NCBI RefSeq assembly: GCF_020804225.1
Contig: NZ_WJBI01000003.1
Span: 44,518 to 90,040 of the forward strand
Source: Methanosarcina sp. DH2
GTDB lineage: Archaea > Halobacteriota > Methanosarcinia > Methanosarcinales > Methanosarcinaceae
Direction of reading: 5' to 3'
DNA: 45,523 nt
The position numbers were made by a program, and so were the translations under genes. Of this stretch, positions 14,197-36,273 are shown one piece after another (the stretch's first letter is position 1; the number at the start of each line of letters is the position of its first letter). Below the pieces are notes generated by a model. It did not search any database, was not told the origin of the DNA, and saw only the letters and a program-made list of their open reading frames with translations.

Positions 14197-14395
14197 GTCT
14201 ATATAGATTTTATTAGATTTATTAGCATCTCCTCAGGGATTTATTTCTTATCAGGGATAAAAGAAAAGTCCAGTTTACCGGAAATTCTACCTCTATCTTG
14301 TTCCTTCCCATGAAATTTGTTCCTTCCCATGAAATTTGTTCCTTCCCATGAAATTTGTTCCTTCCCATGAAATGAGTTAGGGATAAGGGCTTGAG
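14197..14395 (+). pseudogene. Broken copy of the AbrB-PhoU gene start
   Basis: This stretch closely matches 9771-9919, the leader and first codons of the AbrB-PhoU gene (shared GTCTATATAGAT, ATCTCCTCAGGG, then GATAAAAGAAAAGTCCAGTT). The homology stops after GGGCTTGAG, so only about 35 codons were copied, and frame is lost. A 19-bp piece has multiplied to four copies inside it. It sits next to the tnpB remnant. Confidence 0.85.
14301..14376. repeat. 19-bp tandem repeat, four copies
   Basis: Units of TTCCTTCCCATGAAATTTG start at 14301, 14320, 14339 and 14358; only the last differs, at its 3' end. The unit derives from the part of the AbrB-PhoU gene coding for SLPIKW. The near-identity of the copies suggests recent expansion. 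Confidence 0.95.
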
Positions 14396-17076: not shown

Positions 17077-17101
17077 ATTATCACTTCAGGGTTCCTACAG
17101 G

Positions 17102-18910
17102 TCAGCATCTTATCACTTCACATTTTATCCCTTCAGAATTTATTACTTCAGAATTTATCACGTCAGAATTTATCACTTCAGAACCTCTACAGGCCAGCAT
17201 TTCCACAAGTTCTGTGACTGAAAAAGCGTCCACTCCCAGATAGTTTGCGATCTCGACGACCGGGGGTTGGGTAAGGGAGGCTTTCCTGAGGATCTCAATG
17301 TTCTTTATTACCTCTCTGCCCTTTCCATCTGCTATAATCCGACCCTCGTTCATCACAAGAATTCTTGTAGCATAGAGCATTGCAATCTCAATATCATGGG
17401 TACAGAAAACAAGTGTGGAACGGTTATTTTTGAAATAATCCATCATCTGTTCTATATTCACTCTATCCTGCCCTGTTGTAGGTTCGTCAAGGAGAATGAT
17501 TTCAGGATCTATTGAAAGTACCGAGGCAACGGCTGTCCTGAGCCTCTGCCCCCGGCTCAGAGATTGTGGAAGGTCCTGCTTGAGGTTTAAAATTGACATG
17601 GCTTCAAGAGAGGTCCTTGCCCTTTCCTCTATATTCTCAAACTTTAACTGAACAGGCCCAAATCTCGCCTCTTCTTCAGCTGAATCACAGAAGAGCATAA
17701 GGTCAGGGTTCTGGAATACGAACCCGACTCTGCCTGCAAAGGAATATGGGTTTTTTGACCTGGTGTCCTCCCCTAAGACCTTTACACTTCCTTTATATGG
17801 TTTAAGCATGGCTGCAAGGTTCAAAAGCAGGGTTGATTTGCCCGAGCCGTTTGTACCCATGACCGCAATCCTTTCTTCTTTATGAATTTCCAGATTTATG
17901 CATTTAAGCACCATCAGGTTTTTGTCATATCCAGACCACAGATCCCGGATAGAAATAATAGAATCATTATTTACAGAATCATTATTTACAGAATCATTAT
18001 TTCCGGCAGGGCCAGCTAGTGCACTAGTATCTGCACCAATATTTTCTTCCGGGTTCGGAAGGATCCGGGGAGTTATCATATTTTCTTTAGAGTTTTTCCT
18101 GTTCAGCACTAAGAGAGCTTCCCTGGCACTGAGGGGACTTGCTCTTATTCCCAGAGCGTGACAGAGCTCAACGGGTTCAGGAACCCGAAGCCCTAGCCTG
18201 TGAAATACCTCTAGATAATCAAAAGCTTTTGAAGCAGGCTGGTCAAAGATTATTTTTCCGCCATCCATTATGACAATCCTGTCTGCAAAAGGCGCAAGCT
18301 CGTGCAGTCTGTGCTCTACCAACAGAACGGTTATCTTCAGTTTCCTGTTAAGTTCCCTCACGGTATTCAGGACTTCCTGGGTGCCCCCTGGGTCCATCTG
18401 GCTTACAGGTTCGTCCATGGCCAGGATTTCAGGCATCATCGCAAGCATGTTTGCAATGCAGATCCTCTGTTTTTGCCCTCCTGAAAGCGAATTCGTGGAG
18501 CTCAGCCTGTGTCCGGACATCCCGACCATCTGAAGGGCTTCCTCTACCTTTTTATCAATCTCTTCCCTCTCAAAGCAAAGGTTTTCAGGCCCAAAGGCTA
18601 CTTCGTCCTCAACGGTTGTGGAAAAGATCTGGTCATCGGGGTTCTGGAAAACCAGGCCGACACCTCTTGAAAGCTCCATATGGTTTGAGTCTATGGTCTC
18701 AGTCCCGTTGATCCTTATGCTGCCTGAAAATATCCCTCCTGATTCATGGGGAATTATGCCGTTAAGTGTTTTCAGTAAAGTGCTCTTTCCGCAGCCTGTA
18801 GGGCCCGTCAGGAGGACGAATTCCCCTTTTTTTACTTTCAGATTAATCCCTTTTAAAGTCGGTTCCGTTCTTCCGGGATACGTGTACCACAGGTCTTTGA
18901 TCTCTATCAT
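17102..18910 (-). CDS. ECF transporter double ATPase (EcfA1-EcfA2 fusion)
   Basis: A 602-residue fusion of two ABC ATPase domains. Domain 1 (about 1-240): GPTGCGKSTLL, LSGGQKQRICIANML, ILAMDEP. Domain 2 (about 325-545): GTNGSGKSTLL, signature LSRGQRLRTAVASVL, IILLDEPTTGQD. The linker near residues 303-317 is a pentapeptide repeat (NDSVN), and the C terminus is another (SEVIN, about 576-600). Both are encoded by 15-bp tandem repeats. Such fused ATPases drive ECF importers of cobalt, nickel or vitamins. The gene lies between the ECF-S-like and ECF-T genes, in the same direction. Confidence 0.92.
   Translation of the reverse strand: MIEIKDLWYTYPGRTEPTLKGINLKVKKGEFVLLTGPTGCGKSTLLKTLNGIIPHESGGIFSGSIRINGTETIDSNHMELSRGVGLVFQNPDDQIFSTTVEDEVAFGPENLCFEREEIDKKVEEALQMVGMSGHRLSSTNSLSGGQKQRICIANMLAMMPEILAMDEPVSQMDPGGTQEVLNTVRELNRKLKITVLLVEHRLHELAPFADRIVIMDGGKIIFDQPASKAFDYLEVFHRLGLRVPEPVELCHALGIRASPLSAREALLVLNRKNSKENMITPRILPNPEENIGADTSALAGPAGNNDSVNNDSVNNDSIISIRDLWSGYDKNLMVLKCINLEIHKEERIAVMGTNGSGKSTLLLNLAAMLKPYKGSVKVLGEDTRSKNPYSFAGRVGFVFQNPDLMLFCDSAEEEARFGPVQLKFENIEERARTSLEAMSILNLKQDLPQSLSRGQRLRTAVASVLSIDPEIILLDEPTTGQDRVNIEQMMDYFKNNRSTLVFCTHDIEIAMLYATRILVMNEGRIIADGKGREVIKNIEILRKASLTQPPVVEIANYLGVDAFSVTELVEMLACRGSEVINSDVINSEVINSEGIKCEVIRC
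17109..17183. repeat. 15-bp tandem repeat at the end of the ATPase gene, five copies
   Basis: Units like TTTATCACTTCAGAA repeat five times and encode SEVIN-type pentapeptides in frame. A related stretch (CTTCAGGGTTCCTACAGGTC near 17084) lies beyond the stop, so the duplication seems to have run past the gene end. Confidence 0.9.
17960..18004. repeat. 15-bp tandem repeat in the ATPase linker, three copies
   Basis: AGAATCATTATTTAC occurs three times and codes for the NDSVN linker between the two ATPase domains. Frame is kept. Confidence 0.9.
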
Positions 18911-32719: not shown

Positions 32720-35578
32720 ATGGATTTTCAGATCTTGGATGCTGATTACGAAATCGTTGACAGCAGTCCTGTCATCCGCCTCTTTGGCAGGGGAGCGGAC
32801 GGTAAAAGTGTATGCTGCTTTGTCCCGAATTTTGAGCCTTACTTTTATCTCAAGGCCTCCGGAGACCTGCACGTTGTAGCGAGGCTTATAAAAGACACTT
32901 TCGAGCAGGTCAAAAAGGTTGAGATTGTCGAAAAGTTCGAGCCTGTGGGATACCAGAAAACAAAGAAAGAAATGCTCAGGATCACAACCAGCCTGCCAAG
33001 GGATGTACCTGAGATCAGGGATGAGATTCTGAAGATCCGGGATGTTTTGAGGGCAGAAGGCGACTGGCAGGTTTATGAAAGTGACATTCTTTTCAGAAAT
33101 CGTTTTTTAATTGACAGGGATCTCGGAGGCATGGTCTGGGTTTCTGCAGAAGGACAGTCAGTTGACCCTTCCAGGTACTTAAGGGCAGGTTCTACAGGCA
33201 GCTCCCGCTGTGAAAACTTTGCATGTGATGCCTCATTCCTCGCTTCCGGGCTAAAAAGAGTTGAAAATCTGACTATTGCTCCTCTAAAGTATCTTTCTTT
33301 TGATATTGAGTGCCTACCCTTTGAGGGGGGGATGCCTTCTCCAGATGTCTCGCCCATAGTCATGATCAGTTTTTCTTTCGAGCCCGAATATAAAGGGCAT
33401 AAGACCCTTATTCTGCTGGCAAAACCTGCTGCCGATATGGACGGAGATGTCCTTCCCTGCAAAGACGAAACCGAGATGTTAAACCGCTTTTTCGAGATTT
33501 TTTGCGAATATGATCCTGACATTATTGCTGGGTACAACCACCAGGACTTCGATATTCCTTACATCACTGACAGAGTTAAAACCCTGACTGGAAAAGGGGA
33601 AATTATCAATCCGGTTGCTGGCAGGGATGGCAGCCAAATAGGTTATAGGAGGTTCGGTCTTCTTACCCGGACTGAATTGAAAGGAAGGGTGGTTGTGGAT
33701 GCCCTTCCTCTTGTAAGGAGAGCTTTCAGCCTGAAACAATATACCCTGCGAGCCGTTTCAAAAGAGCTTCTTAACCGTGAGAAACTTGATGTTCCTCCGC
33801 TGGAAATGGAAGAGCACTGGAATGACTCAGGGGAGAAATTCCGGAAATTCGTTGATTATGCACGCAGAGACTCCGAGCTTGCCCTTGAGCTTGTCCTTAA
33901 GCTGAGGCTTCTTGATAAATACATTGCCCTTGCCCAGGTAAGCGGGAGCCTGCTCCAGGAGATTGTTGATGGGGGCCAGACTTCCATGGTCGAGACTCTT
34001 CTCCTCAGGGAATTCGGGTTAAGGGACAGGGTTATTCTTCCTAAGCCAGGGGACGAACTTTCGGCAGAAAGGTTTGATATGAGTTCGGACCTGAAAGGCG
34101 GAGAGGTGCTGGAACCGAAAAAGGGCCTTCTGGAAAACGTTCTGATTCTTGACTACAAGTCTCTTTATCCGACCATTATGATGGCTCACAACCTGTGTTA
34201 TACAACTGTTGTGACTCGAAACCAAGACCGGCCCGAAGGAGAAACTATTAAACCTCCTTCGGGGGGAGAATTCGTGCCTCCTGAGGTCTATAGAGGGATT
34301 GTACCTTCCATTCTTGAAGACCTGCTTAACCAGAGAGGAGAGACAAAGAAGAGAATGAAGCGGGCTTCGGATGAAAACGAGTACCGAGTACTTGATGCCA
34401 CCCAGCTCGCTATAAAAATCCTGCTGAACAGTTTTTACGGCTATTCAGGGTATGCACGGGCAAGGCTCTACAGCCTACCACTTGCAAATGCCGTAACCAG
34501 TTTTGGGAGAAGCAATATCCTCAACACCCGGGACCTTATCAATAACGATATAGGAAAAATCGTTCTCAGGGACTCGGCAGCTTTACTTCTCGAAGAAGCA
34601 GGGGAACTCTCCTCTCAGGACAGAATAGTCGAAATTTCAGTTGCCTACGGTGATACGGACAGTGTTTTTGTGCAATGCAGGTCCGGAGGAAACCTTTCTC
34701 TTGAAGAGGTCAGCCTTGTGGGGAACCGACTCGCAGGAATTGTTTCGGCTTCTCTTCCCGACCCGATGGAGCTTGAGTTTGAGGCTATTGCGGAACGAGC
34801 ACTTCTCATTGCAAAGAAGCGTTATGCGCTCTGGCTTTTTGAGCCCAGAAACTCAGGCTGGGAAAGCAAAATCAAGGTCAAAGGTATGGAAACTGTTCGC
34901 AGGGACTGGTGCGAACTGACCTCGATCACCCTCAACAAGGTTCTTGAGCTTGTGCTTATAGAGGGTGATGTTGACCAGGCTGTAGAATATGTCCGTAAGG
35001 TGGTCAGTGATGTCCGAAATCTTGACCCCGGGAAAGATGCCGAGCTTATTGAAAAGCTTGTTCTGACTCGGACCCTCACCCGAAAAACGGACAGCTATAA
35101 AAATAAGCAGCCTCACCTGACAGTCGCGGAAAATCTGAAAAAAAGGACCGGGGTTATGCCTTCAATAGGGACAAGGATTCCTTTTGTCATCACTGCAGGA
35201 AAAGGCCTCTTTGTAGACCGCGCCGAAGACCCTGACTATGTCCGAGAACATAATGTGTCTATAGACGTCGATTATTATGTTAAGAAACAGATCCTGCCTC
35301 CTGTAGAACGTATTCTGGAAGTCTTCGGGGTCAAAATGTTATCTCTTGACTTTGATGCAAAACAGAAAGGTCTCTTTGACTTTGAAGTGAAGAACTCTGA
35401 AGTGAAGAACCCTGAAGTGAAGAACTCTGAAGTGAAGAACCCTGAAGTGAAGAACCCTGAAGTGAAAAAGCAGGAAAAAATATTCTCTCAAAGGGAGAAT
35501 GAAGGGATATTGCAGGAAGAGAAAACCCAGTGTCTGGAGAATGGGCGTGCAGAGCAGCGTTCCCTGTTCGACTTTTGA
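32720..35578 (+). CDS. polB: Family B replicative DNA polymerase
   Basis: A 952-residue archaeal PolB. The proofreading nuclease is present (ExoI SFDIECLP, ExoII GYNHQDFDIPY, ExoIII YARRDSELAL) and the polymerase motifs are complete: DYKSLYPTIM (A), NSFYGYSGYARARLYS (B) and YGDTDSVF (C). It copies DNA at the fork with the sliding clamp. The C terminus is unusual: a PCNA-box-like QKGLFDF (882-888), five EVKNS/P pentapeptides from a 15-bp repeat (889-913), a polar linker, then a second PCNA-box-like QRSLFDF as the last seven residues. The usual enzyme has one such box at the end. Neighbours are unrelated. Confidence 0.97.
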   Translation: MDFQILDADYEIVDSSPVIRLFGRGADGKSVCCFVPNFEPYFYLKASGDLHVVARLIKDTFEQVKKVEIVEKFEPVGYQKTKKEMLRITTSLPRDVPEIRDEILKIRDVLRAEGDWQVYESDILFRNRFLIDRDLGGMVWVSAEGQSVDPSRYLRAGSTGSSRCENFACDASFLASGLKRVENLTIAPLKYLSFDIECLPFEGGMPSPDVSPIVMISFSFEPEYKGHKTLILLAKPAADMDGDVLPCKDETEMLNRFFEIFCEYDPDIIAGYNHQDFDIPYITDRVKTLTGKGEIINPVAGRDGSQIGYRRFGLLTRTELKGRVVVDALPLVRRAFSLKQYTLRAVSKELLNREKLDVPPLEMEEHWNDSGEKFRKFVDYARRDSELALELVLKLRLLDKYIALAQVSGSLLQEIVDGGQTSMVETLLLREFGLRDRVILPKPGDELSAERFDMSSDLKGGEVLEPKKGLLENVLILDYKSLYPTIMMAHNLCYTTVVTRNQDRPEGETIKPPSGGEFVPPEVYRGIVPSILEDLLNQRGETKKRMKRASDENEYRVLDATQLAIKILLNSFYGYSGYARARLYSLPLANAVTSFGRSNILNTRDLINNDIGKIVLRDSAALLLEEAGELSSQDRIVEISVAYGDTDSVFVQCRSGGNLSLEEVSLVGNRLAGIVSASLPDPMELEFEAIAERALLIAKKRYALWLFEPRNSGWESKIKVKGMETVRRDWCELTSITLNKVLELVLIEGDVDQAVEYVRKVVSDVRNLDPGKDAELIEKLVLTRTLTRKTDSYKNKQPHLTVAENLKKRTGVMPSIGTRIPFVITAGKGLFVDRAEDPDYVREHNVSIDVDYYVKKQILPPVERILEVFGVKMLSLDFDAKQKGLFDFEVKNSEVKNPEVKNSEVKNPEVKNPEVKKQEKIFSQRENEGILQEEKTQCLENGRAEQRSLFDF
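35384..35473. repeat. 15-bp tandem repeat in polB, five full copies plus one partial
   Basis: Units alternate GAAGTGAAGAACTCT and GAAGTGAAGAACCCT from 35384 to 35458, then a diverged sixth. They encode EVKNS and EVKNP in frame. Near-identity at the DNA level implies recent expansion. Confidence 0.95.
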
Positions 35579-36273
35579 ATTTTCTGAGTTTCGCTTCCTT
35601 CTCCAAATTGCGCCCCGGGAGTACGTGGTCCTTTTCGCTTCACTTCGTTTCGCTCAAGAGGACTAAATTAAAAATTCCGATGAAGGGACTCGACGAAGGA
35701 GAGCGGTCTTTCCCGTAAAAAGAAGAAAAAAATTATTATAGAGCCAGTAAGTAGTCAGTACGTAAGAATTGTCAATTAAGAACTAGCGTGGGCGACTGTA
35801 AATAACTCATAAATGCGACTGTAAATAACTCATAAATGCGACTGTAAATAACTCATAAATAAAAGAATTTCTTCAATTTCCTTTTTTACTTTTCTTTTTG
35901 CTTCTTTCTACGGACCACCAGACAGGCTGGCGAGTACTTCCTATATTTACCTGTGAAATAAAACCGGTTTCCGGGTCAAGAGAAGTATTTTCCAGTAAGG
36001 AATGTATTTCTTTATTTAGTTTCTCTTAATACCAGCACGAATCCACTTTTTATTATTTCTTTCGCGGCTGGTTGACGGCTTTAGCCTCAGGGTACAGAAG
36101 AAGAAAACTAAAGATTCCATTCCTGGATATTCTGAGTAATATTAACGATTAATCAGGGATTATCAGGTTATTGGCAGTGATTTACCTATATGTCATACGC
36201 TATCTATATAGTTAAGTGGTTTCATTGGGGTTTATTATTTGTATGTACTTCCATATACTTTATATTGGGAATC
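35579..36273. other. Intergenic region upstream of the pst operon
   Basis: About 700 bp without a gene. It holds a possible hairpin near 35628-35663 (GTCCTTTT and AAGAGGAC arms) that could end polB transcription, a 23-bp triple repeat, and the 14-bp sequence CCAGACAGGCTGGC at 35918-35931 shared with 14584. I see no tRNA or small RNA. Confidence 0.5.
35792..35860. repeat. 23-bp tandem repeat, three perfect copies
   Basis: Each unit begins GCGACTGTAAATAACTCATA; starts are 35792, 35815 and 35838. Noncoding. Confidence 0.95.

Follow-up and report, generated by a model that had tools for sequence, protein, structure and literature searches.

Why would a single-chain archaeal DNA polymerase carry two putative sliding-clamp boxes on one tail, and what does the repeat that separates them contribute? 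The polymerase in question is encoded on the plus strand at 32720..35578 of the 45,523-nucleotide stretch of Methanosarcina sp. DH2 DNA analysed here (the window). Its open reading frame specifies 952 aa, its Pfam matches place it in family B (DNA_pol_B, 4e-111; DNA_pol_B_exo1, 4e-37), and its nearest solved relatives are catalytic subunits of Pol delta. A first-pass annotation of this DNA had claimed two PCNA-box-like motifs, and both are present exactly at the coordinates and residue numbers it gave: box 1, QKGLFDF, is an inner motif that follows the RIL of the thumb helix by 15 residues (residues 882-888; 35363..35383, plus strand), and box 2, QRSLFDF, makes up the last seven residues of the protein, with a TGA directly after it (residues 946-952; 35555..35575, plus strand). 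The pattern Q..[ILMV]..[FYWH] matches only these two sites in the 952 residues; a shorter pattern also picks up QEKIF (918-922), for which the genus alignment shows no conservation. Both boxes have the Q, the hydrophobic residue at +3 and the aromatic at +6 of a PIP box (Q..L..F) in a flexible or terminal segment, here a tail of low pLDDT, and the second consensus aromatic, at +7, is missing in both. From their position, and from the motif they share with EndoQ and RFC-L, we infer that either box may bind PCNA.

In the 4.6-Mb host assembly (37 contigs) this is the only PolB match, and there is one PCNA gene, so the clamp is expected to be a homotrimeric ring that offers three equivalent pockets. 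The best PDB sequence match of the polymerase is Pol delta (2e-113, vs 4e-101 for the best archaeal enzyme), and the top five Foldseek hits are all Pol delta (9ekb, 6p1h, 3iay, 7kc0, 6tny), followed by Thermococcales PolB; by this PDB search and Foldseek ranking, its sequence and fold are nearer to Pol delta than to other archaeal PolBs, as in the Delta-like archaeal PolBs of group B6. It resembles the group B6 polymerases (PMC7544198) and the methanomicrobial PolB3 (PMC4104785) in coming from the same taxa and in its affinity to Pol delta/zeta, near which both groups have been placed in print, with a caution in the second paper that the grouping of PolB3 may be a tree artefact. For group B6, cysteines are described as conserved within ExoI, ExoIII and motif A (PMC7544198); in the PDB alignment our polymerase keeps FDIEC and HNLCYTT and has YARRD opposite YCLKD. 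The word "PCNA" is absent from the main texts of both papers, the tail goes unmentioned in their passages on these PolBs, and in the titles, abstracts and passages of the open-licence PMC literature that we searched we found no description of an archaeal PolB with two PIP boxes.

An inner box buried in the polymerase fold would have counted against the first-pass proposal. In an AlphaFold2 model built on 44 aligned sequences (mean pLDDT 78.7), the ordered fold ends with the last thumb helices at residues 850-879 (35267..35356, plus strand; predicted helices 850-867, 873-876 and 878-881), and residues 880-912 and 914-952 all have pLDDT values under 50, placing box 1 beyond the fold. The low pLDDT, a suggestion of disorder rather than proof of it, points to a tail that is disordered past about residue 879.

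We compared tails from 154 loci, four of them without a C-terminus (L028, L030, L080, L082) and one running off its contig (L071); the remaining 149 gave 124 distinct homologues after identical last 300 residues were merged. The C-terminal box is found in all 124, with the full pattern in 121 and an end at Q..LF in three. An inner box is found in 110, a count that includes six weak matches (QQRLFDL, QQQLCEL) because the pattern admits L at the last place, and it begins 15 residues after RIL in 106 of these and 14 residues after it in the other four. Family f6 has a divergent box 1 (e.g. QQRLFDL, QCNLLGF), and +4 of box 1 is non-aromatic in some further tails (QKGLGDF, QKGLHDF). The 14 homologues without an inner box comprise 12 Methanoperedens-like tails together with L121 and L133, and their existence means that box 1 is not essential to the polymerase clade. 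Judged from these sequences, both boxes are ancient. A second PolB in genome G169 (L139, contig 1), about 50% identical to the window PolB and present beside the usual copy, also has both boxes (QKGLFDF, QKSLFEY), and in the assembly of genome G002 the polB match is split and contains an in-frame TGA (L027).

Across the 110 two-box homologues the spacer ranges from 6 to 164 aa: 16 have 6-10 aa, none 11-20, 25 have 21-26, 37 have 27-35, 26 have 36-46, two have 47-60 (this PolB and L002) and four have more than 100. Spacers of 123-164 aa are seen in the PolBs of L087, L098, L100 and L101; that of L087 contains acidic repeats, and L087 and L098 are the named Methanimicrococcus. These lengths bear on the suggestion, made in the first pass, that two boxes might let one polymerase touch two subunits of the clamp ring or keep hold while switching. 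Simultaneous binding of two subunits of one ring would lock the polymerase on, and the single PCNA gene, with its three equal pockets, and the reach of the 57-aa linker, whose contour is about 205 Å at 3.6 Å per residue, would both allow it here. However, the 16 homologues with 6-10-aa spacers can span at most about 40 Å, the Methanoperedens-like enzymes have one box to offer, and in PolD the nearest free pocket is described as 70 Å off the last ordered residue, a distance for which a 40-aa linker is hardly enough (PMC7101311). Because of the short spacers, bridging is not the general function of the tail, although it is possible for the linker in the window, and we consider it an unlikely explanation overall. 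Of the two suggestions, then, touching two subunits finds little support, given these short spacers and the single-box homologues, whereas keeping hold while switching fits and has a direct precedent in what is described for PolD (PMC7101311).

Selection sets the boxes apart from what lies between them. Pooled over 29 Methanosarcina sequences, pN/pS was 0.022 for box 1, 0.087 for box 2, 0.369 for the spacer, 0.070 for the 35 codons that lead up to box 1 and 0.149 for the 115 codons further upstream, values that are meaningful only as a ranking, with synonymous differences near saturation. The residues of boxes 1 and 2 are held in these 29 sequences while their synonymous codons vary, with four Gly and six Leu codons in use, TTA and TTG included; because the residues are kept despite this wide variety, and pN/pS is low, the boxes are far from chance. 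Strong constraint on box 1 might also be expected if the segment served to finish the thumb fold rather than to bind PCNA, and its fixed offset from the thumb helix and its pN/pS, the lowest of the PolB segments measured, would suit such a role. Yet pLDDT is already below 50 from residue 880, the motif is missing in 14 of the 124 homologues, and its position is that of the C-terminal box in other archaeal PolBs, so that we find this role hard to credit.

The spacer of the window PolB begins with five EVKN[S/P] units (889-913) and a sixth unit, EVKKQ, which together form a 15-bp tandem repeat at 35384..35473 (plus strand; Tandem Repeats Finder, 35383-35466, period 15, 5.6 copies, 95% match, and motif scan), and continues as a polar, charged linker of residues 919-945 (35474..35554, plus strand; pLDDT about 25). 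The unit count is two or fewer in 27 of 29 Methanosarcina sequences, and expansion is confined to the window PolB, with unit GAAGTGAAGAACYCT, and L002, with unit GAAGTTAAGAAACCT; the unit codons differ between the two species (GTG/AAC vs GTT/AAA). In L004, a close relative without the expansion, GAAGTGAAGAAACCTGAAGTG is already present at the repeat spot, and local growth therefore accounts for the repeat without any seeding from elsewhere. On whether the window PolB (L001) and L002 acquired their expansions independently, a tree that omits three genus members with incomplete coordinates (L014, L027, L029) gives a support of 0.003 to the node that joins L001 with L002, L004, L006 and L008. Slippage in steps of 15 bp, which preserves the frame, is a simple explanation of the EVKN repeat, which by the comparison within the genus appears to be recent and species-specific. 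The first-pass view of the repeat as a spacer of changeable length thus holds in so far as the unit is 15 bp, in frame and expanded here and in one relative, but not for the other 27 of 29 sequences, with two units at most; the repeat embellishes a linker that is already variable in length. Whether linker length is tuned in a regulated manner, through contingency-like variation of the repeat, is a further question, to which the in-frame units with their 95% match, and the fact that the two species with an expansion use unlike unit codons, might suggest a positive answer. Such tuning is nonetheless very unlikely in our judgement, given the 27 sequences with no more than two units and the wide variation of spacer length elsewhere without any repeat.

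We also considered whether a dispersed repeat had seeded the polB array. A genome search with the 15-bp array DNA returned one other match (window 17078-17165, minus strand, 73%), and most of the 15-bp arrays viewed in other Methanosarcina consist of different units. The match falls within an intergenic 15-bp tandem array at window 17078-17183, whose minus strand resembles the polB unit (73%) and which is the only other such place in the genome; genome G011 (L167) has a 20-copy array of that intergenic unit at a similar distance from polB. Perfect tandem repeats are present in the window at 35792-35860 (23 bp x 3, downstream of polB) and at 14298-14373 (19 bp x 4).

A separate pattern concerns the 3' end of polB in two other genomes, G027 (L168/L018, same sequence as Methanosarcina spelaei L035) and G029 (L016/L183). 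Their last ~200 polB bases and the downstream DNA match, and the matching tails end in QRSLFDWT, although the polB cores fall into different clades. Genome G027 has another polB 3' end, of native type (residues 692-952), about 2.4 kb downstream, past an adenylosuccinate synthetase-like gene. The pattern has the appearance of a polB tail exchanged through recombination.

Where, then, might the two boxes have come from? In short-query alignments box 1 aligns without gaps with the C-terminal EKSLLDF of PolB 5mdn, which we take to be the Pyrobaculum enzyme, and a single gap places its KQKG opposite KQVG of P. abyssi PolB. We hand-picked 14 further PolBs of the phylum from a search in which 386 of 390 genomes gave a match of some kind; in 12 of the 14 the chain stops after one box, at an offset of 13-15. 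The single-box archaeal PolBs (Pyrococcus, Thermococcus, Pyrobaculum) have their box roughly as far from the thumb as box 1 and stop there, whereas the window PolB adds a linker and a second box. Since the chain of most other phylum PolBs examined goes no further than the place of box 1, that box probably represents the ancestral PolB clamp dock, with box 2 an addition in this lineage that serves as a tether. The remaining two of the 14, PolBs of family f14 (L181, L182), have a box at the usual place and a second PIP-like C-terminus (TLDMFM), possibly a convergent one.

Box 2 has counterparts at the ends of other proteins of the host. A DNA pattern for Q..LF[DE]F followed by a stop occurs at three places in the 4.6 Mb, in PolB, an EndoQ homologue and the RFC large subunit, against one for a backward control; the count alone is weak, and it is the identities of the proteins that carry the argument. 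The host EndoQ homologue matches P. furiosus EndoQ at 5e-114, and for Thermococcus EndoQ the stimulation by PCNA is described as depending on the C-terminal box, the likely PCNA-binding site (PMC4858679). Of 30 Methanosarcina EndoQ loci (L215-L244), one lacks the C-terminus (L243) and all 29 others end in Q..[LI]F[DE]F, 27 of them (not L238 and L240) also having an inner Q.S[FL]..[LF] box, which a linker of 19-57 residues separates from the C-terminal one. In 27 EndoQ sequences pN/pS was 0.192 for the inner box, 0.167 for the C-terminal box, 0.655 for the linker and 0.230 for 40 core codons. In a second genus of the family (g11; represented by G161 and taken as Methanolobus), 26 genomes were searched, one gave no locus, and all 25 EndoQ loci found (L246-L270) have the C-terminal box only. 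RFC-L ends in Q[KR][ST]LFDF at 28 of 29 loci (L186-L214, the exception being L214), with zero non-synonymous changes in this box over 27 sequences, and an inner Q[KR][TIM][LFI] motif, a poorer PIP match, is present at 27 of the 28 loci with the box end.

This sharing also speaks to the idea that box 2 mainly binds some other partner, such as primase, RPA or a repair factor, leaving box 1 as the sole clamp box. The linker would permit it, and a cPIP peptide of P. abyssi PolD is described as binding primase better than PCNA (PMC7101311). A QxxLFDF carboxyl end common to EndoQ and RFC-L of the same genome, however, should mean a common partner, PCNA, and the Methanoperedens-like PolBs retain only their C-terminal box. 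PCNA fits both observations better, a second partner being possible, and we think it improbable that another protein is the main target.

In EndoQ and RFC-L of Methanosarcina, the inner Q-box precedes a fast-evolving charged linker. We put forward only tentatively the possibility that PCNA clients in Methanosarcina repeatedly make use of such a tail, with its inner box, fast-evolving charged linker and C-terminal QxxLFDF; if so, it may be old in PolB of the class, a recent gain for the genus in EndoQ, and of similar make in RFC-L. Were this the case, one box could keep a client tethered during exchange of the other in the pocket, a hand-over within one chain, and the PolB tail would be the one-chain counterpart of the p125 box and the flexible p66 and p12 boxes.

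For the polymerase itself, our preferred reading, to which we assign a probability of about two in three, is that of a disordered clamp-binding tail whose two boxes differ in origin and in job, box 1 serving as dock and box 2 as tether. We infer the division of labour from the sequence and its conservation, the fixed and free positions of the boxes, the disorder in the model and the box-1 alignment. Box 1, at a fixed distance past the thumb, would most likely be the dock that keeps the polymerase on one PCNA subunit as it synthesises DNA. Box 2, which terminates a linker of variable length, would most likely be the first to catch or re-catch PCNA, or would hold it when box 1 releases it, during proofreading, at a lesion or in client exchange, as proposed for the cPIP and iPIP of PolD. 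The EVKN repeat would be a product of in-frame 15-bp slippage that lengthened the linker with a neutral or mildly tuning effect.

Multi-box clamp binding, with boxes that have different jobs, is known from Pol delta, Pol eta and PolD. For the mechanism, the closest parallel is the DP2 subunit of P. abyssi PolD, which is described as having an inner box (iPIP), a linker of about 40 aa whose length and composition vary across archaea and a C-terminal box (cPIP), used in a two-step model in which cPIP recruits PCNA, and also binds primase, while iPIP is engaged in synthesis, the binding of the two being judged mutually exclusive (PMC7101311). The window PolB has the same layout, an inner box near the fold, a variable linker and a C-terminal box, all in one chain. 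PolD differs in belonging to an unrelated polymerase family and in carrying iPIP in a loop of its clamp-1 domain; with the window PolB in family B by Pfam, the likeness is one of architecture only. In the DP2 of the host genome, the last 220 residues hold one match to Q..[LIMV]..[FYWL], QLGLSDF near the end, a pattern that a non-canonical inner box would escape. In a review, two boxes are said to be needed for PolD with PCNA and one for PolB with PCNA (PMC3984812).

Pol delta offers a second comparison. Its human p125 subunit has a box after the catalytic core, GLLAFA from residue 1001, which docks one PCNA subunit and whose key residues L1002 and F1005 severely cut activity when mutated, and its p66 and p12 subunits carry flexible boxes, mutation of the p66 box having a minimal effect on activity (PMC7048817). 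By analogy with p66, box 2 could be minor. Like Pol delta, the window PolB has a box after the core (GLFDFE for GLLAFA) and a further one on a flexible end; Pol delta differs in placing the extra boxes on other subunits, p66 and p12, and in the cysteine modules of the p125 C-terminal domain. CysA and CysB modules after the thumb have no equivalent in the window PolB, whose tail (880-952) contains one cysteine. The PDB alignment to p125 ends at residue 971, and because the box offset differs between the two proteins we call box 1 and the p125 box analogous in position, not proven homologous.

These comparisons extend the multi-box clamp arrangement to an archaeal polymerase of one chain, a neighbour of Pol delta in published trees. 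Its natural variants, in which the boxes are 6, 30, 57 or 164 residues apart or the inner one is absent, form a series in which the reason that polymerases carry more than one clamp box is testable in a one-subunit enzyme, and which bears on how the Pol delta boxes came onto several subunits. The architecture of the tail mirrors the iPIP, linker and cPIP of PolD and, spread over subunits, that of Pol delta.
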